DNA of 64,000 bases from the NCBI RefSeq assembly GCF_003473485.1, contig NC_053042.1, positions 46,649,762 to 46,713,761 of the forward strand, given 5' to 3'. This document shows positions 17,693 through 53,150 of the stretch, in pieces. The notes beneath the pieces are model-generated. The model had not been told where the DNA came from, made no database searches, and saw only the letters and a program-made list of their open reading frames with translations. The translations under genes and the position numbers were made by a program. This DNA is from Medicago truncatula (taxonomy: Eukaryota; Streptophyta; Magnoliopsida; Fabales; Fabaceae). Numbering within the stretch: position 1 is the stretch's first letter; every line of letters starts with the position of its first letter.

Positions 17693-18714
17693 GAGAATTG
17701 TTGTTCCCACTTTTGGTTTGGCTGTGCCACACGAGTAAATTACTCAAATACCCCTCGGCAGTTAACTGCCGAGGAAAACTGAAAACTTCGGCAGTTAACT
17801 GCCGAGAAAACCTCAAACCTGTTTTTTTTTTTTTTTGACAAAATTCATTAATTGTCATTAATAACAAACCTTTTTTTTTTGACAAAAACCATAAATTGTC
17901 TTTAATAATATTTATTGATTTTGAATGTTTCAATCATTATTTTGGTACGTTTTAAACAATTGCAGTATTATACTTATGTGTATATATCTTAATAAGAATA
18001 ACATTTAAATCAGTGTAAAAATTAAGCATTTGAATATTATTTTGCACATTACTTAAATACAATCGTTAAAATAATTGTGCACAACGATTTTTTTTAAGGT
18101 ATAATATGTTGTTATATTTTCTACATTAAAATAATTGTGTACAAAGATTTTTTTTTATTTAAGTAATTTGCAAAACAATATTCAAATACTCAATTTTTAC
18201 ACTTATTAAAATGTTTTTTGAGGACTTAAATGTTAAGCCTAAAACAAAGAAAAAGGAAATAAAAGAAGAAAATTTCGTGAAAGTTCTTTGAAAATAAAAT
18301 AGGCAAAAAAAGAAGAAGATCAAATGAGTAATACAATTAAAATAATTGTGAATATTTCTGTAAAAAGGAAATAAAAGAAGAAAATTCCGTGAAAGTTCTT
18401 TGGAAATAAAATATTCATTATTGTTGAAGATCAAAGCAGTTATAACAAAAAAAAAAAGATTTAAAGGAGTAATACAATTAAAATAAATAAGGAGTGCAAA
18501 TCAATAAAATTAAAAACGAATTATTAAGAAAAATCAATCAAAAATGATAAAGACCGCGGAATATTCTCAAAGAATAAAAAAAAAACAGATTTGAGGTTTC
18601 CTCGGCAGTTGACTGCCGAAGTTTTCAGTTTTCCTCGATAGTTTACTGCCGAAAGGCATTTGAGTAATTTACTCGTGTGGCATAGCCAAACCAAATGTGG
18701 GAAGAGCAATTCTC
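17693..18714. mobile_element. Mutator-like MITE, 1022 bp, with long TIRs and 9-bp target duplication
   Basis: Terminal inverted repeats of about 130 bp start GAGAATTG at both ends (17693 onward and 18714 backward on the other strand). The flanks are ctaatcatt (17684-17692) and ctaatcctt (18715-18723), an 8/9 match and the length expected for Mutator-type insertion. Each TIR carries two copies of a palindrome with core CGGCAGTTAACTGCCG. On the left they are at 17753-17774 and 17788-17805; the right copies are mutated. Inside, a second inverted repeat lies at about 18012-18205, and a roughly 55-bp direct repeat at about 18245-18300 and 18362-18415. There is no transposase ORF, so it is non-autonomous. 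Confidence 0.8.
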
Positions 18715-20889
18715 CTAATCCTTATCTTCCAGATTTTCAGAGAGGCAACAATAAAGCCTCATGAGTTTATTACTTTAATTATTTTCTTACCATTATAATA
18801 AACAATTTTAAAAGTCAGAGTTGATGGGTTCGAATATCACGATTTTAAAAGTCTAACGTTAATTAATCAAATAGTAATAAACAAGATTAGATAAAATAAT
18901 TTTTAAAAAAAACTCATAGACCGTGAAATTTTAATTACCCTCTCAATACTCACAACACAAGTGACAAACTCTATCTCTGTTTTCTATGGCTTTTTGTTAT
19001 CATTTTGGCACATGCTTGGTAATATGGTAAGCTTTTTTTGAGTTTTGAATTTTCTCACTCTAAAAGAAACGATGAAACTTGCTTTAGCCTTGCAAATGGC
19101 GTTTCTATAATATAGAGAAGTAGTGGCGGGGATTGGGAGTTTGGGTCAGCCATCTGCAGTAGAAAATTAGAATATGATATGATTTTGGGTTTTTTGGGAG
19201 TTGAGATTGTGAATGGAGCTCTTTATGGTTCTTACAATTTGATGATTAGTATTAAGCATTGAAACACTTTGAAAGAGAAAGAGAAAGCTTGCAATGATAG
19301 AGAGATGAAGTTGATGGGTTGTATTTGATGCAGATGGACTATGATAAGAATTGGTAGCTGATTTAATCTAATGGTTGAAAAAAAATTGGTCCATCTTGAA
19401 CCAAATCTGCAAAGGTCCAAGCTAAATGGCACCCTCTAACAAGGTAGAGCATATCTGTTACAGGGGCTATACAGAGGTTAAGGGGTGGAGGGGGAGGGAA
19501 ACGGTGGAGAAAAGGGATGAAGAGGGAGCAAATTTGGTGTGAAGGTTCTACTCTAGTATTTGGTGGACCTATAATCTAATGATGAAAAAAGGTTGTGCAC
19601 CATGCAACACTTGCATCAGCATACACATTAGAAAAAGCCCAGAAGATGTACATTTGTAATTTATACCTATATTCAATCCGGAAGCTAGCATGTTAAAAAA
19701 TTAAAAAAAAAAAAAAAAAAGAATGGTTGAAACTTTGGTGGATGAAGCTACAATATACCAATGTATCTTTAGTGGTTACATTGGAAGATTGAGATATGCA
19801 ATAGCTTCAGGAGAATTATAAGAGAGAAATGCACTTCTTTCTTGGATAGAAGATCAAGGAACAAAGAAACATTTAAGTCTTTTGATGATAGCTTACAATT
19901 TTACATTGAGCTTTTAACAACACTTGCTTCTTTGAATACTAAATTTTATCTCTCACCTTTTAATCAACTTTACTTGGCAATAACTTACAAGCTACAGAAA
20001 AATGAGAGAATTTTATGAAATGTTTTGGTATTCTCCAAATTTAGCTATTTTAATACTTTAATCAATGTTCCAAAGACACTCATTAAGATTCTCTTAAATA
20101 ATAACAACAATTTATAGTTAGATTAATAAAACCATTTTATCAATAAAAAAAGGTTAGATTAATTCAACCCAAAACATGATTTAAGATTTGTTTTAAATGT
20201 TTTATAAATTAAATACAAAATTTAAACTAATATTGCAGAGCCCTCAATCAAGAGAGCTCTTTCAAAAATTAACGTATGCCGTTATAAGTGACGCACACAC
20301 GGTATTCTTTAGTAAAAGGCGAAAGAATAGTTCGCTATGTGCTCATCACACGGCTCCGTGATTTGTAACAAATGAAGTCCTTTCATTTTATAATGTTAGC
20401 AACTCACTTTTATTTACAAACTAGTCGATGTGGGCTATAGACAGAACATACGCACGCTATAATACCAAGTTACCAACCCCTTATGTTAATTTCTTGTGTC
20501 GCATACGGCTATACCTTCTTCACAAAGAGACTGTTACCACAATTCTCTCCATCCACATGTCTCGTTTTCACGTTACTACAGTTTACCCTAACATAATGAG
20601 GAAAACAGATAGATTTGTTGATGGAAATATGGAAGGCTTCACTCATTTTGATCCCAAAAGCAGCAGCAGCAAAAAACTTACGAAGTTGTATTTGTTCATT
20701 GAAACATTTGGAGGCAACAAAGTCTTGGTCTTAATGTTTGTAGCATATTGGTTGTAGCAAAAGACTGAGTATATATCAAATAAATATTTAATGTTATGCA
20801 AATATGTGGATTTTCATAATAATGACAATGATGAGAAATTTATAATGTAACATATTGCCTGTTCAATCGTATGTTTACTGGTCTGAGTT
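18715..20889. other. Intergenic DNA without a recognisable gene
   Basis: AT-rich with an A18 tract at about 19700, which could be the scar of an old poly(A) retroposon. An open frame at 20428-20757 (+), about 109 codons, has no recognisable motif, and I do not call it a gene. Confidence 0.4.
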
Positions 20890-32887: not shown

Positions 32888-35800
32888 CTACAGGTTTTTC
32901 TTGAGACTGGATGTGGAAAATGATGATCTCGGTTTTTGATTTGATCTCTTTGTTTTGTTGCTATCTAGATCGGAATTTCTAATAATGAAAAGGAAAGTCT
33001 CAACAAGCATGGCACCCACCAACCCAAGAATTCCTCCAGCTGCATTCTGAAAACATAGATAAGAAAGAAAAAAAAAAGGATATGAAGAGATATGAGAATT
33101 CATCTAAACTATTTGACACAATAAATAGATGACAATAACATAAAGAGGGGATGCCTAGCAATCTACATGGTTTACAATAGTTGGACTATTTGGTGGCCTT
33201 GTAATCAAAAGGTGTTCAATACACAGTTTCCTTGGATGTGGAAAATATTGTTAAAGTGGCAAAACTGAAAGCATAGAATTGGCTCACTGCAGGATTATCT
33301 GGTTTTAGATATGTTGTTTCACCTTGGTTGACAAATCATGCTGCTTGTTTCGGTGTTTCTGAAAATTTCGGCACATAGTTTAATAAGTTAAGATATTTTT
33401 TTGTTCTTCAGTATTTCCCTAAGTAGTTTGTTGGGGTCCCTCTCAAGTTGATTTGTAATTCTGTGACCTAATTCGGTATCTCTTATGCTAAATTTAGCTT
33501 TTGTCAATAAATTATTTTAGCTTGTAAAAAAAGGTAATGTAAAACAGACTTTAGACAATACCATGGCAGGACTGTGATCAAACAAAGCTCTAAATGCTGC
33601 ATATCCAACAAGATAGCCAGTAAACATTGTCACCAAAACATGCAAACCTGAAAAAAAATTACAAAAGAAATCAAATAAGGATACTTCAGAGATATGCAAG
33701 CATAAACCGCATCTATAATAGATTAGAGAAACTACATCTGGCAAGTGACGCACAGACCTAGAAAATAGAGAGGGGAAAAAACTCTAGAAATTTGGTCACA
33801 TGAATTCAGTTTTCTTATAATAGAGAGAATATTAAAAGGACTGTGTTTTCAGTAATATCAATACTCGCAATCAAGGAGGAAAGTCACCAACACAAGAAAT
33901 TGCCTAACTTCTTCACTGATAACAGCAAGTAATTAAAATCAATAACTATTATCAATTACAGTAAAACATAGTACATTATCCGGTGAAAGGTTTAAATATC
34001 AAAAGTTAACTAAAGGAAGCAAAATTGTAGTTGTGATTTGAAATGATATTCAAGTGTTTGAACACCCTGTTGATATATATAACAAGTACTGTAAAGCGGT
34101 TATTGCACAAAGATAACCAACATAATCCCACTAGTACCACCAACATACTACATTACTACTACTAACATAAAGTAAAATGTTTACACAGAAAAAATCTCAT
34201 TACCAGTGTCATACATTAAGTGCCATATGCCCAACGCAATGTCCCCTTTACAAACTTAAATGCATGTTTTTTCTTTTCTATTACATATATTATGTTTCCA
34301 TGTTACTAAGTTCAATCAAGAACTTCATACAAAAAACAAAATAAACTCTGCAACGGTGGAAGCGTGTAAAATACCCAATAAAACTACAATTGAGAACATA
34401 CAGATTACAATTTTGCGAGTCCGGATTTGCTCAATTTATCTACCCTCCATTTACTGTCCATTTCTGAAAGAGATAGACACAAGTGATAGATTAGGAGGAT
34501 CCATTTTAGTAACTGGACCCCGCTAATCTTCCACTTGTGTCTATCGCTCTCATAAATGGAGGATAGATAAATGGTCAAATCCGGACTCCAACTTTGCAGC
34601 CATACTAATAACTTCTATAAACAAAACCTCTGGACAAACTGCATTACTGTGTATTGCATACTTGTCTCAGCAACTCAGTAAGGTACTTAAAAATGAGAAC
34701 ATTGAGCAAACCAAGCTACTCTATATCCAACAATACAACAACAACCAAGCCTTATCCCACTAAGTGGGGTCGCTTACATGAATCAAACGACACCATAGTG
34801 TTCCATCCAACAATGTTCAATCTAAATTAGCAAATTAATAAATCAAAGTCCCAGATACTCAAATGATTATTTATTTTAAAGTGAAAAGACAAGCTACTGA
34901 TGAAAGAAAAATAAAATCCAATAACTAAATAAATGAACAGAGAAAGATGTACAAGCTCCGCAAAAAACTTCATAGATATGCTAAACCTTCATAGCAGATA
35001 AAAGAAACAAGAATAATACCAAATCCTAATTGATCCTTGTAAGAAGAGAATGGTTCTGTAACATCTTCCTTTGGTGCAATATCCTTCACAAGCTCCTGAT
35101 ATGCTTTCCTCTCCGCTATATCTTCCAACTTTTTTAACCTTGCCTTCAATTCTTCACTCTTCACACCAAAGGGTCAACATAAAAGTTACTAACAAACAAA
35201 AATCTCAAGCAGAACTTCATAAACAATTATAACAGTAATATAGGGTCCTTTTGTATTGATTTGTTTGAGCTTAATTACTTACATAAGCAACTGTGAGACT
35301 GCACGGGAGAGCTTATGAAAACAGTTTATTACATGTCTATAAGCTATTTTCAGCTTATTTCCATAAGCTTTAAAGAATAGCTTATGAAAATACCTCATAA
35401 CTTATAGGAAACAGTTTGAATTTATTTTATCTTTTGTTGTAGAAATAGGTTATACATAAGCACTCATATATAATCACTTATGCTAAAAGTGCTTAATTAA
35501 ATTGTTTATCCAAACAAGGCCATAATCAATCATATATTTTCCACATCGAATCAATCTAATTATATCACAAGAACAAATTTTGAAACTGGAAAATAAAATA
35601 AAAATCTGAAAATTCATTTCGATGTGTGAGAATAGTGAAAAACAAGGAAATGAAAGTAGCGTTGGACCTTTTCTCTGGGTTTAGGGCTGGAGAAGATGAA
35701 GCTGGTACCCCATAAGAGTTGGGTCAATTCGGGTCTAGTGGATGGATCAGAGGCGATCCAGATAGCACGAAGTGGCTCATACGGTACGTTGGATTGGGCG

Positions 35801-39438: not shown

Positions 39439-42400
39439 TCATATTGGAGCCGAGTTGCTACTATTATTACTCTTGTTCTCGGATAAAATTTGCTTCCTCT
39501 CCGCCTGAAGTGACCGACATAGCGATTCAAGTTTTTCTTTTTGATTTTTCGTTTTCTCCAGTTGTTTCTTCAAGCGCTCACGCTGTTCAGACAATGAAAA
39601 GCAAACATTCATTGTTGATTCATTCTTAGAAATATGGAACCGAAATGAGACTGAATATCTTAAGGATGAAAAGCAAAAATTACCATATTTTGATAGACGG
39701 AGAAAAAAAACATACTTAAGTCTATATTACAGTGACTAACATATTGCTTTACGGTCCAATTTATCTCCCTATTTATATATTATAGAGTAATAAATGGTCA
39801 AGAACAGAACAGGAAACGCAAGCAATGTACCTCGTCAACTAACTCTATAAGTGTAACATCAGACTTTTCTGATTTACTCTTCAAAAATTGATTCTCCTTC
39901 TTGAGTTCCTTCATTGATTTTGCCATCTGATTTTGACCACAATGATGGAAAAGGCAGACGATTTAGAATTATGCTCATCCAACTAAGATATGATTCAAGC
40001 AAATATGATTTGAAAAAATGAAATATTTAAGAGAAATCAAGTTTACCTTCTCAATCTCTTGTTTAAATGTTTCAAATACATCATTGCTCTTTGTCAATGC
40101 TTCCTGAAATTCAATGCATGTTTGAAACATACAATCTTAGTAAATGTATAAACGTCTAAAGTAAATTCACATCCCACAATATGTTACAAATCAGAACCAG
40201 AAGAGCTAGGATCAGCCAAACACAATTCTAAAATAGGAATAAGGCCCCACTGAAGCGAACAATTCACTTTAAAGAGTAAAGTGAGTAATATCAACTGTTT
40301 TTAAACAAATCAATTGATATTATATGCACACATAACAAATCATGGATGATATGCAAATGATTCATAATGTTACACATTACAAAATACAATCAACACTTTT
40401 ATGCAAATAATATAAGCACATAATATAGTGAAGTAATCAAATTGTGACAGAAATGAAAAAGAGGACAAAAAGACCACCTGGAATTGTTGGAATTTCTCTC
40501 CATCAGTTGTCAGCTGCAAACGCAAATTCTTCTCAGTTGCCAATAACTGAGATACTTGTTCTGCATATAATTTCATTTGTGACTGTTCCTGAGCAGATCT
40601 TTCCTCATGTTGCTTAATTTTTAATTCTGCAATCTGTAGCTCCAATGACTTTTGCTTCAACTGTTGATTGATAAAAAAATAGTTAAGTAAACCAGACTCA
40701 AAAGTTAATAAATATGAATACAACAAATGTCAATCACAAGAAAACAGAATAAACGCCACCTTCTGGGCATATTGCTGCTCAGATAGTTCATATTGCTCAG
40801 CAAGCTGCTTTAGATTGTTTCTTAACCTGTATTGAAATCAAGTCGAATTATTGTAGGCTCGACAACAAACAATCATAGGATCCATAAATAAACGAACGCT
40901 TTTCCTTTTTTCCTTTTAAAAAGAGCCATTGTATGGTGCAGGAAAACACAAAAAAACAGAACAGAGCCCAGCTTGTGAGCTGTGGGAAGGGTGAAATAAA
41001 TGCAGGCAAAAACAATATTTTACTAAGTATTATCGGATGGTAAGATACAATAACACAGAAAAATTTAACACAAAAAATCATGTCATCATAAAAAACCTTT
41101 CAGGGTCTTACATGTCGTTCTCCTTTAGCTGAGAAAGGCAATCATCCTTTCGTTCTTCGAGCCTGATGCTCACATCCTGTAGCAAAGAGAAGTTAGCAAT
41201 GGCAATTGTTTTACAGAGAGAAAAAAAAACTCCGATTCATTTGATGAAAATAAAAATATTTAAACATCGCAGCTGAATTTGAGAACTATTGTGGTGTATA
41301 GGTCAATTAATTGTTAAAGGAAGAACCATAACAAATTCGGCAACTTTGTGGTTGCTTTGTGGTGCATTTTGATAAGATAATTGAAAAATGATTCCATATC
41401 CATGGGCCAGCTAGAAAAGATATTACTATTCTTTACAAATCGGGTAAAAACCATCAATATTCCAACCTTAATGAAGACATTTAGACTTGGGAGTAAGTAC
41501 TCAAGGTATCTGTTAAGAACCAAGAAATTGAATTGAAAAGAAATAACAACTTTATTGAAAGAAAGAGAAAGAAAAGAAGAGAGAGAGAGGGATCCGCCAA
41601 GAGTTTCCTCTTCTGCAAAAGAGTCACTGTTGTATAACTCTGTTCACTAAATATTTATAATACTTGATGAAATCCCTCTATCCTACTATCCTCTTTATCT
41701 ATACAAATATTTCTCTACTAACTAACTACTCTAATTCCCGTTTATTCTATATCCTAACAGTAGTATCACTTGCTTTTTCGATAACTTCACTGTAGATTTA
41801 TAACTCCATTCCTACCAGTTTCCATCAACTAGGCACCATTTAGATATTCTTTGTATATATAGGGAAAAAGACATGCAAGAGAAGATATTGAATGCTACTG
41901 TTCAACCCAGCTACATATATTTCAGGGATATTGACCTAAAGAATTTGCCAGAGCATTGAATAGATGCTAATTCCATAGCAAGTCGAAAAACAAGAAAGCA
42001 TCCAATAAAAGAAAAGAATTCATCCCAACAATATATACAACAACAAAAACCAAGCCTTATCCCACTAAGGCTTTGTTTGGGAGTTTGGAGGGGAGGGGAA
42101 GGAAGGGCTTTGTGGGGTGAGAAATAGAAGGGAAAATTGAAAAATCTTTTACATTTTCTTGAAGAGTATTTTTTCAGAGAGTGATAAATTAAGACTTATG
42201 ATTAATATATTTTTAATTTTAAGAATATTATAACAACATAGATTAAATTTGAAGAATTCATATAAACCCTCCCAAACCTCCCTCCAATACAATTTTTTAG
42301 TTCTCCCAAATGAGGAGGGTTTTATATTTGAAGAAAAATTAACCCCCCAAAGCCCCTCCTCCCAATGTACTCTATTTCTTCCACTTACTTCTTTCTTTTT

Positions 42401-45400
42401 TTTTCACTCAAAACTCGCAAACAAAGTCTAAGTGGGTTAACATTCACCCCAACAGTATACAAAAAGTAAAAATTACTGTTTGATCATTCGCAGGAGGTGG
42501 TCGTTCCCCTATCCTTGACATATAGGTTTATAAAACAGTTTTAAAAAAAAAAAATAGTCAATCAAACAGGCTCTAAACTGTCGTACTGATTAGTTTTTTA
42601 TTGATTTTTTTATCTGTGCCATAAATTAAAACGTGGAAATATACCAAATGTACACTTTGTTCAAAATATCATATGTATTATAAACTAGAGATAATGATCA
42701 AACCTTGATTGCATCTTGGAACTTAGCTGACAAGTCCATCCTCAAGTTTTGCCCCTCAGTTGATACACGTTTGCATTCTTCCTGAAAATAATGGAATATG
42801 AATCCTAGTTTTTTCATTAACAAAGTCAAAATGTTGCTCTTGAAGTAAAATAAATAAGAATCTGATCACACTGCCAGGTAGAAGTCACATTCATGTAATA
42901 AGAAAAGGAACTTATTAGGATAAAGAGGAGATACAACATGGAATATAAAAACTTGAATGAAACAAGACTGCTCAATCGTTCCACATATCAGTAGCAACAA
43001 CTGTCATGTAGCAACCATGACCAGAACATCAAAGATCCAGAAGGGGAAAAAAAAATACTGTAGCGAGATTAGGAGAGAAAAAAGAGACATTCTTCAAGAC
43101 GGAAGCACTCTGATAACCAGCCAAACAAAATTACATACAGTACACACAATGACATGAAAATTGAGCCTCGATACCAAAACTTTCATAACAAATCAACAAG
43201 AATTTCTCAAAGAGGAGGGACAGACAACACAGAATTACTTCCAAGAATCCCAAAAAGATTTTCCAGAGAGTAATTGCCCTGATTGCAAATGTGAGGCCTA
43301 GAAATTGCTAAAAATGTATTTGTAAATCCTGTTGAAGTACATCTATTCAGACAAAATAATTACCAGCGGGCATTGGACTTCCAAATAGGTTTCTCAAGAA
43401 GGAACTTTTTGGATGATCAGGAAAGTGAATTAGAAACTAAAAAGTTGCGCAAATATGATGCCAGGAAGATTTCACATGTACTCCCTCCATTCCAAACTTT
43501 TGGTAGTTTTAACATTTCATTTTTGTTTCAAAACGATGGATGTTTTAGAAAATCAAGATATAATTAATCTTTGTTTCCCAACTATACCCCTAGATATAAT
43601 TAAGATGGTTTATATTTATGAAATTGCTTATCGTGAGGTATTTTTGATCTTTTCAAAGAAAAAAGAGAATTTAAATAATTAAATAAGAGTACTTTCGTAC
43701 AAATATACATAAATTAAATAATTTCACAATCTGTATGCAAACACCTTACACCACCAAAGATATGGAATGGAGGGAGTTGTTTAGGAAGGGAAAATTAAAC
43801 ACAGATACTTTGGCAGGATGGGGGCTGAAAATAAAAACAAATGCTTCAGTTGAGAGAACTGAAGCATTTTTATATTTGTAGTTATTAGTGTTTCACTTTT
43901 GCACGGCCTTTAGTTTACGTGTTTATGTGAGTAGGATGTTTTTGCACTAGAGGTGGTTATAAACTAAACATGAGAAATGGCCAGGACATGCTACCATTCT
44001 TCAGAATTTAGATACCAGCAGCTCTGTACACAAGTGCCTCATCAAGGCTTATGAGTGCAAGATGAAACCCAACCCATCAAGGACTAATTTTCAATCAGCA
44101 AAGCAAACAAACAAATTCAGATTTCCATGGATGGAAACTAAAACCCGTGACCAGGTGTTCCACTACAAGCGAAATCATTTAGTAGTCAGATTAGCCCAAA
44201 ATTTGGTTTTGCAGTCAGATTAACCTCCTGCCTAATTGATTAGGTATTCAACATCTTGTAACAGAAGAATACCATCAGCATTTTATTTTGACGCTGTAAC
44301 TCCCTGCATAGTGACTCAAGCTTATCTCTGACGGCAAAAGCTACAAAAAGGAATGAAGCAGTCAATGAACAAAAATTAGTTACAGATTAAGGGCTGCAAT
44401 GTATTTAAGATTTCAAAAAAGTTTATCTAAAAATATACCATTTCCCCTAAGTGTTTCTCAAAACAACACAAGCTTACACAAAACTCCAACCTAACCCAAA
44501 TTAATACAAGAAAAAAAAATGTACCATGTTCAAATGGTCATTTAGAAAAATAAATTGTTGATACACTTACTACAATAATAGAGAAGCAATACATTTAGAA
44601 GGAAAACCAAAAGAGCAATACAATCCAATTACAGTTAAGAAGATACCATTCAAGTGCTCAATTACAAAGGTAATTACTGAATAAAGTGAAAATCCCTTCA
44701 ATATCCTAGCATCAAATTACACTGGTATAAAGTATGAAATCCAATAATTTGATTACACTATGTATCACTGTTTCTGTAGAATGAACTAATAGCTTTGTCA
44801 TCAGGAGAATTAGATGACTGTAATGTAATAGAAACTGGTTTCTATGGTTCAGAAAATAAATGAATAAACACATAATTATTACTTTGCCCTCTATAATAGC
44901 AATACATTTAAAAAGAGGTCCAAAATAACGACAGTTAATATGTTAGCCGACTTAGCACATTCAGTTATCATGTTATAAACCTATGTGAGCAGGATCTTCT
45001 AGAATTCTGTCTTAGCTGATCCTCTATAAATATCAGTGTACAGTAACAAGTGGTTGATTCATTTCTTGAATTTTAAGATTCAAACAGTCTGTCTATTTTC
45101 TCTAATCCTCTGAAATACCTTCCTTCACTTTCTCTTGATTTTTCCTATCATAATATGAAAGTTCACAAATGTTTTCCAGCAAAAAATTCAAAACACACTA
45201 TTCAAGATCAGATATATTCATTCCAACCTGCATCTCTTTCAGCCAATACTTGTTGATACTTGAGTGAAAACTCTAAGAGCTCCTTTTCTGATTTAAGTGC
45301 ACGCTTTGAACCCTTGCGTTTTTCCCCAGTTTCCTGAGAAAATTAGAAGTTTGACTATTCAGTCTCTCCTGAATGTAGCCATATAGAACATGCCAAAAGA

Positions 45401-47233
45401 GAGGAAAAAAAACTCAAATTGACCAAAAGATAAATGCAAAAAAGAAGAAATATTCTCATTGAAACTAATCTAACCCTCTGCAAGTCATTATTTTGTCAAC
45501 TAACCTAACCCTCTGAATCATTATTTTGTCAACTAATCTAACCCTTCCAAATGAATTCCCTACTCAATAGAACCTAATTGAACCCCCTGAGTCATTTTTT
45601 CTATTAAACTTGTAAGATACTGCTGTAAACAAACAAAAGAGCTAGTCAAATAAAATGTGACAGTTGATGGGTTGAACTACAGACAAAATAGCCTTATCAA
45701 AGAGAGGCAAAGTTACTCGGAGAGTCCGAGAGAAAGGCAGAGAACACAATATATAGCAGAACCATATATTTATATTTCCAATGCATGCGGAGATATACAG
45801 GAATTAACATAATTTACTAACTGATTTTTTGTTTTTTGAAGAATCAACCATCCCTGAAGCGCACGCATCCTTTACAGGCAATGCTTTTGTCTCCAAAGGT
45901 TGTTTAGCTGCAACCACAATTAAGAATGGTAACAGAACCTTATCAGATACTAAAGAAATAAGAACAAGAAGACATCAATAATGCAAGCATACACAAGAAT
46001 CCGTCAATTATGACTGTTAACAGAATCATTCCACACATTTGAAAAAAATGGAGAAGGGAAAAATTACTATTAATTAAAGTGGCACTGATGACCATTTTAC
46101 AACCTTCCCCGGGGGGATTTGAACTCCGTCTCTTGAGGTTACAAGGTCAGGCTCTTACCACTGAGCTGGCACCTCATGGACAATTGTTCAATCATATAAG
46201 ATAGTATAAGAACGCCAAGTTAAAAGATACGGTTCACCTTTCCAACAAATTTGTTCTTTGAACCATGCACATTCAATTAGCTTCAGAGCGGAAAAGTCAT
46301 TTCATGTTCAAAGTTAGACAAAATGGATAATTCAGAGAGAGGGTAATTTGAGGGTCATAACAAAGGGGATGCCTAATTTCATACAATATGGAGAATGTTT
46401 GAACTAGAACACTATAAACAAAAGAGTTTCATGGTTTTTAAGTCACATCCAGAAGTAAACATACACACATCAGCAAGGACTATTACAATTTTGACAATCG
46501 TGTATGTAATAAATAACATGAGTAGGAAAATGGGACCTATTGCACCCAGGGGCACCTAAAATTTCCATGAGTAGGAAAATGAATAAGGAAAGAAGAAAAA
46601 TTTACATTGGTACAACACATTGGTCTTGCAGGATACATAATCTACTTGATAAAGGAAGTTATAGAAGAACTTATACAAATAGCACCCGTAAGCAATGATC
46701 AATGACAACACTCTATTGTAGAGTCACCAAATTAAAACTTACTTTTAAGTAAACATCAATATGTTGCTTAAATAGCATGCAGTTACTAAATATGAAGTCT
46801 ACAAATGGGGCATCGATGGTTAGGAGAATTACATTTATCTGAACTCTGGCATTCTCCTTGTTGTTGCTCTTTTACATCACTGCTTCTGGATGGTGGAGAC
46901 TCAGAAACAGAACTAGCTAGAAGAGCTGTAATATGTGCCTCCACTGAGCAGTCTGAGGTGAAAAATACATGCTTCAGAAAACAAAAAATTAGAGACAACT
47001 TTAGTTCCCTAATTTCGCTTACCATGATTGTTTTGAAACTCCTTTTCTCCCGGCATATTTGATAATTCATTAGAATGACCACAGTCAATAAAACCATCCT
47101 CCTTGTAATCGCTGATGGGCTTCTCTTGTTCAGGGGTTGGAGTTGCAGGTGCAACAGGTTCTGCAGTGCCCTCAACAAACCCATCCGGCAATGAATCAAC
47201 TTCAGGAAGCTGGTTTGCTTCTGGATTCTGCAT
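39439..47233 (-). CDS. Taxilin family coiled-coil protein
   Basis: Twelve coding exons (minus order): 47023-47233, 46833-46952, 45822-45907, 45228-45333, 44273-44340, 42704-42781, 41112-41176, 40760-40826, 40478-40660, 40047-40103, 39831-39926, 39439-39582. The joined frame gives 426 residues. The first about 130 residues are acidic and disordered (start MQNPEANQLPEVDSLPDG). From about 150 to 415 a continuous heptad-rich coiled coil carries taxilin signatures: LCRELQRQNKMLMEECKR, LAEQYELSEQQYAQKLKQKS, LESLCRSLQAERK. Animal taxilins bind syntaxins and the nascent-chain complex and are linked to vesicle traffic; the role of plant members is not well known. The second-exon donor (AAAT|GTAATT at 46832) is the least certain junction; it was chosen for frame. 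A 5'-UTR intron is likely (donor near 47877). Several introns host transposons. Confidence 0.87.
41511..41759 (-). mobile_element. Solo LTR (Copia-like) in a taxilin intron
   Basis: 249 bp. On the minus strand it runs TGTTAGGATATAG ... GGTTCTTAACA, with short inverted ends TGTTA/TAACA, a TATA-like TATAAATATT near the middle and AATAAAG close to the 3' end, the layout of U3-R-U5. Flanks are gtatc and gtagt, so the 5-bp duplication is imperfect. Confidence 0.65.
42042..42068 (-). mobile_element. SINE (Au-like) tail split by a MITE
   Basis: Plus strand acaacaacaaaaaccaagcc ttatcccactaa is the complement of the Au-like 3' end. Its CCCACTAAGTGGG palindrome is broken at TAA by the MITE at 42069-42428; GTGGG resumes at 42432. 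Confidence 0.65.
42069..42428. mobile_element. Tourist-like (PIF/Harbinger) MITE
   Basis: Terminal inverted repeats GGCTTTGTTTGGGAGTTT and (complement of right end) GACTTTGTTTGCGAGTTT; TAA on both sides (42066-42068 and 42429-42431). 360 bp, non-coding, inside a taxilin intron. Confidence 0.75.
43481..43776. mobile_element. Stowaway-like MITE
   Basis: 296 bp with inverted ends CTCCCTCCATTCC and GGAATGGAGGGAG. Left flank is TA, right flank TT, so the duplication is imperfect. It lies in the taxilin intron between exons at 44273 and 42781. Confidence 0.7.
46072..46180 (-). mobile_element. tRNA-derived SINE in a taxilin intron
   Basis: On the minus strand a D-arm-like CAGCTCAGTGGTAAGAGCCT and a T-arm-like GGAGTTCAAATCC are followed by a short body ending in T/A-rich sequence. 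The acceptor stem does not pair, so this is a SINE and not a tRNA gene. Confidence 0.65.
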
Positions 47234-51597: not shown

Positions 51598-51764
51598 TAG
51601 TTCTTAAAAGCTGAAAACCACAAAAAGATCTTCCAAAGAAAATAATACATAAGCATGACCCCAAAGAAAGAAAAAAATTAAATAAATGCTACCTGTTAAC
51701 AACACACTGACTAAAAGATTTAACAATTCAGCAGAAATCAACACATAAATATGAACCCAAAGAA

Positions 51765-51900
51765 GATGACAACAACAAAATGTTATCCCACTAAGTGGGT
51801 TTGGAACTATATGAAATGAATTGCCCTCACGCAGGATCGAACTACGGACCTTCAGTTTACAAGACTGATGCTCTACCACTGAGCTATAAGGGCAAGTTGT
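51765..51900 (-). mobile_element. SINE with complete tRNA-Thr head and Au-like tail
   Basis: 136 bp flanked by perfect 16-bp direct repeats atatgaacccaaagaa (51749-51764 and 51901-51916). On the minus strand: a short ACAACTT leader, the tRNA-Thr-like head (51822-51893), a short AT-rich body, the hairpin CCCACTTAGTGGG, then GATAACATTTTGTTGTTG. The tail motif is shared with the SINEs at 34735 and 42042. Confidence 0.85.
51822..51893 (-). tRNA. tRNA-Thr(UGU)-like sequence, head of a SINE
   Basis: 72 nt fold as a full cloverleaf: acceptor stem GCCCTTA/TGAGGGC (one G-T pair), D arm GCTC/GAGC, anticodon stem TCAGT/ACTGA with loop CTTGTAA (anticodon TGT), T arm CGTAG/CTGCG with loop TTCGATC. Discriminator base A. 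Box A and box B are intact. Because it lies inside a retroposed unit with target duplications, it is probably a SINE head, though it could still be transcribed by Pol III. It is on the same strand as EF1A. Confidence 0.75.
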
Positions 51901-53016
51901 ATATGAACCCAAAGAAAAAAAATGAAAAAAAATAAAATAAAATAAATACTATAATATAGAACACACTTGGAGAAGAAATACACAATCCAAGTAAAAAATT
52001 CAACAAGTAATCTATACAACAATAACTAACATAAGCATGCTTCAAAAGAAAAAGGGACTCCACTGTAAAACAAACTTCAGTAATCAGGCACATAATTTCA
52101 GCATGATTATGATAATCGAACAAGCATGTGTGTCAGCAACAGATTCTAATCTTATCTATTAATCAGGCATGCAATCAGATTCTTCAGCAGATATAACAGG
52201 TAAAACAAACTTCAGTAATCAAGAATAAAGTATGACAATATGTCAGCAACAGAATATACATCGGGCACGAAATATGATGTTTCAGCAGAATCCAGAAACA
52301 AAAAAATATAGATACGCATGTGTATATCAGTTATGTTGTATTACATGAATGAATCAACATAAAACTCGAAAATATGGATCCAAAAAGTTAACACCATCAC
52401 AACAAAGTAAGACCACCTTTTAAAAACATAAACGATTATCACTTTTTGTATTCAGAATTACAATTAAACAGGCGCATAATTTCAGCATGATTATGATAAT
52501 CGAATACCAACTCGAAGGAAAATATAGAAACAAAAACAAACCAATTTCAACGATCCTGTAATTACACTACAACTGTAAAACTAAATTGCGAAAAAACAGA
52601 ATCCAAGTCAATAATTGAATAGCAAACAAAAGAAGTATATAACAATATAGATTCTTATTTTGTGTGTTTAGGTTGTGCTTGTAGAAAATAGCATGGTAAT
52701 AATGTGATGTTGATATAATAATGGCATGGTAATGTTAAAATGCATGAATGAAGAATGTATGAGTATAGAAAACCATCAACTCCTTGAAAACTACGATGAT
52801 TAGTAAATAAAAGAACTATTGGATTCAGAATTGCGATTAAGCATGTACATGGATGGAATGGAAAAACAAGAAATCGAAAAACAAAAGCATTATAATGTAA
52901 TCAATCGCAGATGTAAAGTAAACAACACGAATAACCTATGAATGAATTGATTATGAATACATTGATCGATCGATTGATAAGAAAAGAAATTGAAGGATTT
53001 AGGGTTGGTTTGTTAC

Positions 53017-53150
53017 CTTGAGACGAAGGAGAAAAGGCTGCGCTGCGGAAACCCTAGTCGATTTGCAAGGAACAGAATTGTGAGAATTGAGAGGAACGGT
53101 GGGGTTTTTAAATAAGGGTTTCAGGGGTTTATAAACTACTCTGCACTTAG
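53017..53150 (-). promoter_or_regulatory. EF1A core promoter and first leader exon
   Basis: On the minus strand GAAACCCTTATTTAAAAACC provides an AT-rich TATA-like element. Downstream C/T-rich sequence and CTAGGGTTTCCGCAG lead to the first leader exon ending at 53017. AAACCC/AGGGTTT telo-box-like motifs are common in plant translation-machinery promoters. Confidence 0.6.

Follow-up and report, generated by a model that had tools for sequence, protein, structure and literature searches.

A complete threonine tRNA lies in the predicted 5′-leader intron of an EF1A gene in the 64-kb stretch of Medicago truncatula DNA analyzed here (the window). The initial annotation described it as the head of a 136-bp unit that carries perfect 16-bp target duplications and was inserted by reverse transcription. 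We find exact repeats of TTCTTTGGGTTCATAT, identical at 16 of 16 positions, at 51901-51916 and 51749-51764; as the unit is read on the minus strand, the former is the 5′ (upstream) target-site duplication (TSD) and the latter the 3′ TSD. The enclosed unit runs from 51900 to 51765, and beyond the repeats the adjoining base differs at each side. The order on the minus strand, 5′ to 3′, is T-rich flank, TSD, leader, tRNA, linker, hairpin, AT-rich joint, (TTG)3, TCATC and TSD. When the two 50-nt junctions were dinucleotide-shuffled 2000 times, the longest shared run reached 15 nt once and 16 nt never. Elsewhere in the window, 111 overlapping pairs of exact 16-mer repeats stand 60-400 bp apart, so the repeat by itself is not decisive; its weight comes from the exactness with which it bounds the tRNA and the tail. 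On this ground both parts of the earlier description stand. The unit is real and almost certainly retroposed, and it has, over 16 of 16 bp, the target-site duplication that marks LINE-type insertion in tRNA-derived SINEs.

The host intron is predicted from splice-site sequence alone, at 51611-53016 on the minus strand (GTAACA...TTTTCAG, 1406 bp); it opens with the GT at 53016, after CTCAAG, and closes with the AG ending at 51611, before CTTTTAAGAACTAATGGG. A TATA-like TTTATAAA is present near 53130. The coding parts of EF1A match NCBIfam TIGR00483 with E-values of 8e-75 (252 bits) and 6e-133 (443 bits); taken singly, both score below the whole-protein cut-off of 540. These matches and the predicted intron agree with the earlier placement of the unit within the 5′-leader intron and on the coding strand of EF1A, where it ends about 138 bp before the predicted acceptor.

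The head of the unit was examined for its integrity as a tRNA. ARAGORN places a tRNA-Thr(TGT) at 51821-51894 on the minus strand, the sole tRNA that it reports in the 64-kb window, and Rfam model RF00005 matches 51822-51893 with 69.6 bits against a gathering cut-off of 29. The tRNA as we delimit it (51822-51893, minus strand, 72 nt) has the anticodon UGU, a discriminator A and no encoded CCA. All 21 stem pairs across the four stems can form, two of them as G-U, and each of the 13 conserved positions checked is kept, which bears out the description of an intact tRNA-Thr(UGU) cloverleaf. Boxes A and B are recognizable by sequence within the complete tRNA and would provide the internal Pol III promoter expected of a tRNA-derived SINE. 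Within the 64-kb window we count one copy that bears this head.

Simulated substitutions give a measure of how little this head can have changed. Among 20,000 simulated copies for each number of changes, all pairs and conserved positions survived one, two, three and four substitutions in 37%, 14%, 5% and 2% of cases; at three substitutions, 1045 copies (5.2%) kept every one of them. Given this fall in survival, and barring selection to keep it intact, the head has probably accumulated at most some three base changes since the time when it functioned as a tRNA. Its integrity thus reflects either a recent insertion or selection acting on the tRNA. We considered the TSD as a clock for a young age and rejected it. 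Substitution rates are of the order of 1e-8 per site per year, and at this assumed rate the probability that both copies remain free of mutation is 20% after 5 My and 4% after 10 My, so that "young" is a loose bound only. The minimum-energy fold of the unit, computed without most of the leader, is more stable than that of shuffled sequences (z -2.70; 1 of 200 shuffles as stable). Three arms of the cloverleaf (acceptor, D and anticodon) are present in it; the T arm is paired otherwise, and the tail hairpin forms its inner 4 bp only.

A tRNA-like stretch (AGCTCAGTGGTAAGAGC...GAGTTC) is also seen at 46121-46167 on the minus strand. It has no Rfam match at E-values up to 1, its best flanking repeat is 8 bp and implausibly placed, and it is possibly a decayed SINE head.

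The 7-nt leader, ACAACTT (51894-51900, minus strand), has a CAA motif at positions -6 to -4 of the tRNA, in the expected region of Pol III initiation; in Arabidopsis tRNA genes, transcription is described as starting at a CAA within 10 nt upstream (PMC11700998). The 5′ end of the unit falls one base ahead of this CAA and 7 nt ahead of the tRNA. From this one coincidence we infer that the unit resembles a Pol III primary transcript and not a mature tRNA. The earliest possible Pol III terminator after the tRNA, a TTTT at 51777-51780 on the minus strand, lies 42-45 nt past the tRNA 3′ end and inside the tail. As no run of four T occurs in the 41 nt that follow the tRNA, a transcript could extend into the hairpin.

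The tail begins with a 22-nt linker (51800-51821, minus strand) that has no run of four or more T. It continues with the hairpin sequence CCCACTTAGTGGG (51787-51799, minus strand), which has a possible 5-bp stem and is a candidate recognition element for a reverse transcriptase. A short AT-rich joint leads from there to the 3′ microsatellite TTGTTGTTG, or (TTG)3 (51770-51778, minus strand), and then to TCATC at 51769-51765. Both the hairpin and the terminal repeat are present as annotated, and the tail appears to be of LINE type. The further label of the tail as Au-type is not supported. Au is a SINE family reported from throughout the plant kingdom. The 3′ ends of Au-like SINEs are described as T tracts (PMC3747384); judged by that description, the label was rejected, as the unit ends in (TTG)3 followed by TCATC.

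The 13-nt hairpin CCCACTTAGTGGG has one other exact copy in the window, at 34756-34768; chance would give 0.02 matches when one mismatch is allowed. The 31-nt tail of the unit, CCCACTTAGTGGGATAACATTTTGTTGTTGT, matches 34768-34738 at 87% identity (E 1e-5 within the window), with an ungapped score of 19, where none of 300 letter shuffles exceeded 10. This match belongs to a headless 70-nt tail fragment (34735-34804, minus strand) with the same hairpin and TTG end as the unit; because it sits between 10-bp ATTGTTGGAT repeats, its sequence suggests a 5′-truncated insertion. Its likeness to the unit covers the last ~31 nt only and ends at the 5′ base of the hairpin; 5′ of the hairpin, the sequences of the related tails align poorly. 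The second candidate relative, at 42069-42043, shares 27 nt at 81% identity (E 0.03-0.08), comprising CTTAGTGGGATAA and a T/G-rich end, and its hairpin 5′ arm is absent. No flanking duplication of at least 8 bp was found around it, and neither ARAGORN nor Rfam gives a tRNA match at either locus. The annotation had claimed the same 3′ end for two other SINEs of the window; as worded this is not confirmed, since the locus at 34.7 kb is a clear relative, the second is weak and partial, and neither is a demonstrated SINE.

The second of these loci lies within a region, 42040-42470, where two diverged stretches are oppositely oriented (CAAACAAAGCCTTAGTGGGATAA on the minus strand and CAAACAAAGTCTAAGTGGGTTAA on the plus strand) and may be the termini of a MITE-like element. 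They resemble the tail of the unit, perhaps through descent or else by chance.

Searches for the tail beyond the window used collections ill suited to estimating copy number. The tail patterns had no match in viral contigs, and the longer pattern none in prokaryote genome contigs. The shorter pattern (19 fixed bases) gave two bacterial matches in 257 billion bases of prokaryote contigs searched on both strands, against about two expected by chance by our own arithmetic. The tail strings retrieved no plant paper from literature text, only three bacterial papers that we take from their titles to be chance matches.

The 3′ end and the insertion site bear on which LINE could have mobilized the unit. 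The seven RTE-clade LINE families of flowering plants tabulated in one review end in (TTG)n or (TTGATG)n; the same review describes about 100 nt in common between the tobacco TS SINE, which has a TTG end, and an RTE LINE, and lists Au-like SINEs without a partner LINE (PMC3747384). The TTGTTGTTG at 51778-51770 is an end of this RTE type. For legumes, the RTE signature is given as a T stretch, tending to at least four T, about 10 nt upstream of the site, and a TSD whose first base is T and whose next is typically A (Nishiyama and Ohshima 2018, via PMC13295347). The T-rich stretch upstream of the unit (51917-51932, minus strand), in which the eight positions -9 to -16 relative to the first TSD base are all T, resembles part of this signature. 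Six consecutive T occur at that distance from 2.2% of 600 local positions and from 0.7% of window positions. The T stretch and the first TSD base of the unit match, in what is a single case in T-rich DNA; the second TSD base is T, not A, and a TSD that begins TT counts against the RTE reading. At the 34.7-kb fragment there are just three T upstream and the TSD begins with A, likewise a point against this reading. The insertion site of the unit is not of the TT|AAAA type given for L1 in PMC13295347.

According to the same source, legume SINEs end in Tn and legume LINEs in (GTT)n (PMC13295347). The unit carries a LINE-like (TTG)3, unlike the Tn of those published SINEs, and this counts against its fit to a SINE of the legume type. 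A start of reverse transcription on a LINE RNA, followed by a switch to a tRNA precursor, would predict such an end; the point is not decisive, since TS-type SINEs end in TTG too. On balance, mobilization by an RTE-clade LINE appears to be the best fit to the sequence.

Taken together, these observations make it very probable that the unit is a tRNA-Thr-headed short retroposon of SINE type, inserted by target-primed reverse transcription. In our best reading, the unit derives from a tRNA-Thr precursor made by Pol III and carrying a 3′ end of RTE type, and it has decayed little since insertion. We propose that RNA polymerase III, directed by the tRNA-internal boxes A and B, would start at the CAA and continue past the tRNA. 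The template would be either the transcript so produced or a tRNA precursor entered by template switching from a LINE RNA, and its 3′ end, the hairpin and UUG repeat, may have been recognized by the reverse transcriptase of an RTE-clade LINE. Nicking of T-rich DNA by the LINE endonuclease, within the leader intron of EF1A, would have opened the site into which the RNA would then be copied full length. We infer these steps; the 16-bp duplication is observed. In favor of the best reading we count the exact TSD, the intact tRNA, the 5′ end next to the CAA, the similarity of the tails, the (TTG)n end, and the T stretch with the first TSD T. Against it we count the restriction of the tail similarity to the last ~31 nt, the mispaired T arm in the minimum-energy fold, and the TTTT at 51780-51777, which could stop Pol III ahead of the (TTG)n and so remove the proposed recognition repeat.

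Within this reading, we consider a one-off chimera and a member of a SINE family equally probable. A chimera would have arisen if reverse transcription started on the RNA of an RTE LINE (or of a SINE), copied some 31-40 nt including the hairpin, and switched to a nearby tRNA-Thr precursor, the outcome being a chimeric retrogene present in one copy, or a newly born SINE. Taken over all readings, this falls somewhat short of an even chance. The intact head speaks for it, as does the clear likeness to the 34.7-kb fragment, which stops at the 5′ base of the hairpin, and the end resembles the (TTG)n of LINEs, not the Tn of the published legume SINEs (PMC13295347). The PittSINE, of similar plan with a tRNA head, hairpin and microsatellite, has been proposed to arise by template switching onto a tRNA (PMC5729268), and RTE-type LINEs are cited as making tRNA chimeras that became SINEs (Kojima 2018, via PMC13174262). 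The tRNA/L1 chimeras of mammals, of which 21 were found, are however mostly half-length and antisense, unlike the unit (PMC13174262); TS-type SINEs likewise end in TTG (PMC3747384), and the 22-nt linker is left unexplained. If the unit is instead a young member of an established SINE family headed by tRNA-Thr, which we regard as a real possibility just below the halfway mark, its SINE-like composite anatomy and the related tail in the same window are accounted for. SINE heads usually drift away from the parental tRNA, whereas this one retains every checked pair and position; nor is there a second head in the 64-kb window, a sample too small to weigh much.

A quite improbable account is that of an ordinary nuclear tRNA-Thr gene with an incidental tail and repeats, or of a retroposed tRNA gene kept by selection, the latter compatible with our best reading. 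By its sequence the unit could fold and work as a tRNA, having a CAA leader and an intact body with boxes A and B. The exact flanking duplication and the tail shared with the 34.7-kb fragment oppose an ordinary gene, as does the position of the first four-T run, 42 nt downstream and inside the tail. A further scenario, which we offer tentatively and hold to be rather doubtful, sees a nascent SINE in the unit: a single-copy fusion in which a full-length tRNA-Thr precursor with its Pol III leader was joined by template switching to the hairpin and TTG end of an RTE-clade LINE, and which would still be an expressible tRNA gene in the EF1A leader intron.

Comparison with known elements places the best reading among established systems. 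The tobacco TS SINE, paired with the RTE-clade LINE RTE-1_STu, resembles the unit in its tRNA-derived 5′ part and terminal TTG repeats; as described, TS differs in being a family with ~100 nt in common with its LINE, whereas the unit shares ~31 nt with one fragment and has an intact tRNA-Thr head (PMC3747384). The RTE-associated SINEs of legumes (Nishiyama and Ohshima 2018, via PMC13295347) are like the unit in the T stretch ~10 nt upstream and the first TSD base T; they differ, by their description, in a second TSD base that is typically A (T in the unit) and in a Tn end where the unit has (TTG)3. The Au family, compared in the same way, differs in its poly(T) or short T-stretch end (PMC3747384). 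For Medicago truncatula, the elements MT_SINE-1 to -3 are listed with poly(A) ends and without data on a LINE partner, while the unit ends in (TTG)3 (PMC3747384). The closest structural parallel is provided by PittSINE/TguSINE1 of passerine birds, which have heads derived from tRNA genes, a 3′ microsatellite and a hairpin to which the reverse transcriptase is proposed to bind, and for which the gain of a new head by template switching has been proposed; they differ in being established repeated elements of a vertebrate with a CR1 tail (PMC5729268). The birth of SINEs through chimerism of a tRNA and an RTE LINE has already been proposed, as Kojima 2018 is so cited (PMC13174262). Among the literature matches listed, no title concerned a plant element that joins a tRNA-Thr head to this tail, and we make no claim that the unit is unpublished.

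The origin of SINEs from a tRNA transcript and a LINE 3′ end has mostly been deduced from families whose heads have drifted. With its intact head and Pol III-type leader, the unit is a better than average specimen of this known kind of element. The undecayed head, the leader and the perfect TSD would make it a usable specimen for asking which 3′ bases the reverse transcriptase of an RTE-clade LINE needs, given the ~31 nt in common with its relative, and whether functional tRNA genes can arise by retroposition within introns of genes that are highly expressed. Should it prove to be one copy among many, it would be an ordinary young SINE.

Two further RNA matches were observed elsewhere in the window. 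A match to the MIR2629 precursor is found at 17748-17819 on the minus strand (Rfam, 67.5 bits; cut-off 60). A U5 spliceosomal RNA gene lies at 20239-20355, also on the minus strand (Rfam, 93.1 bits, model positions 1-117 of 117); upstream of it are a CCCACATCGA stretch and a TATA-like TTATAAAA, the former of which resembles the upstream sequence element of plant snRNA genes.
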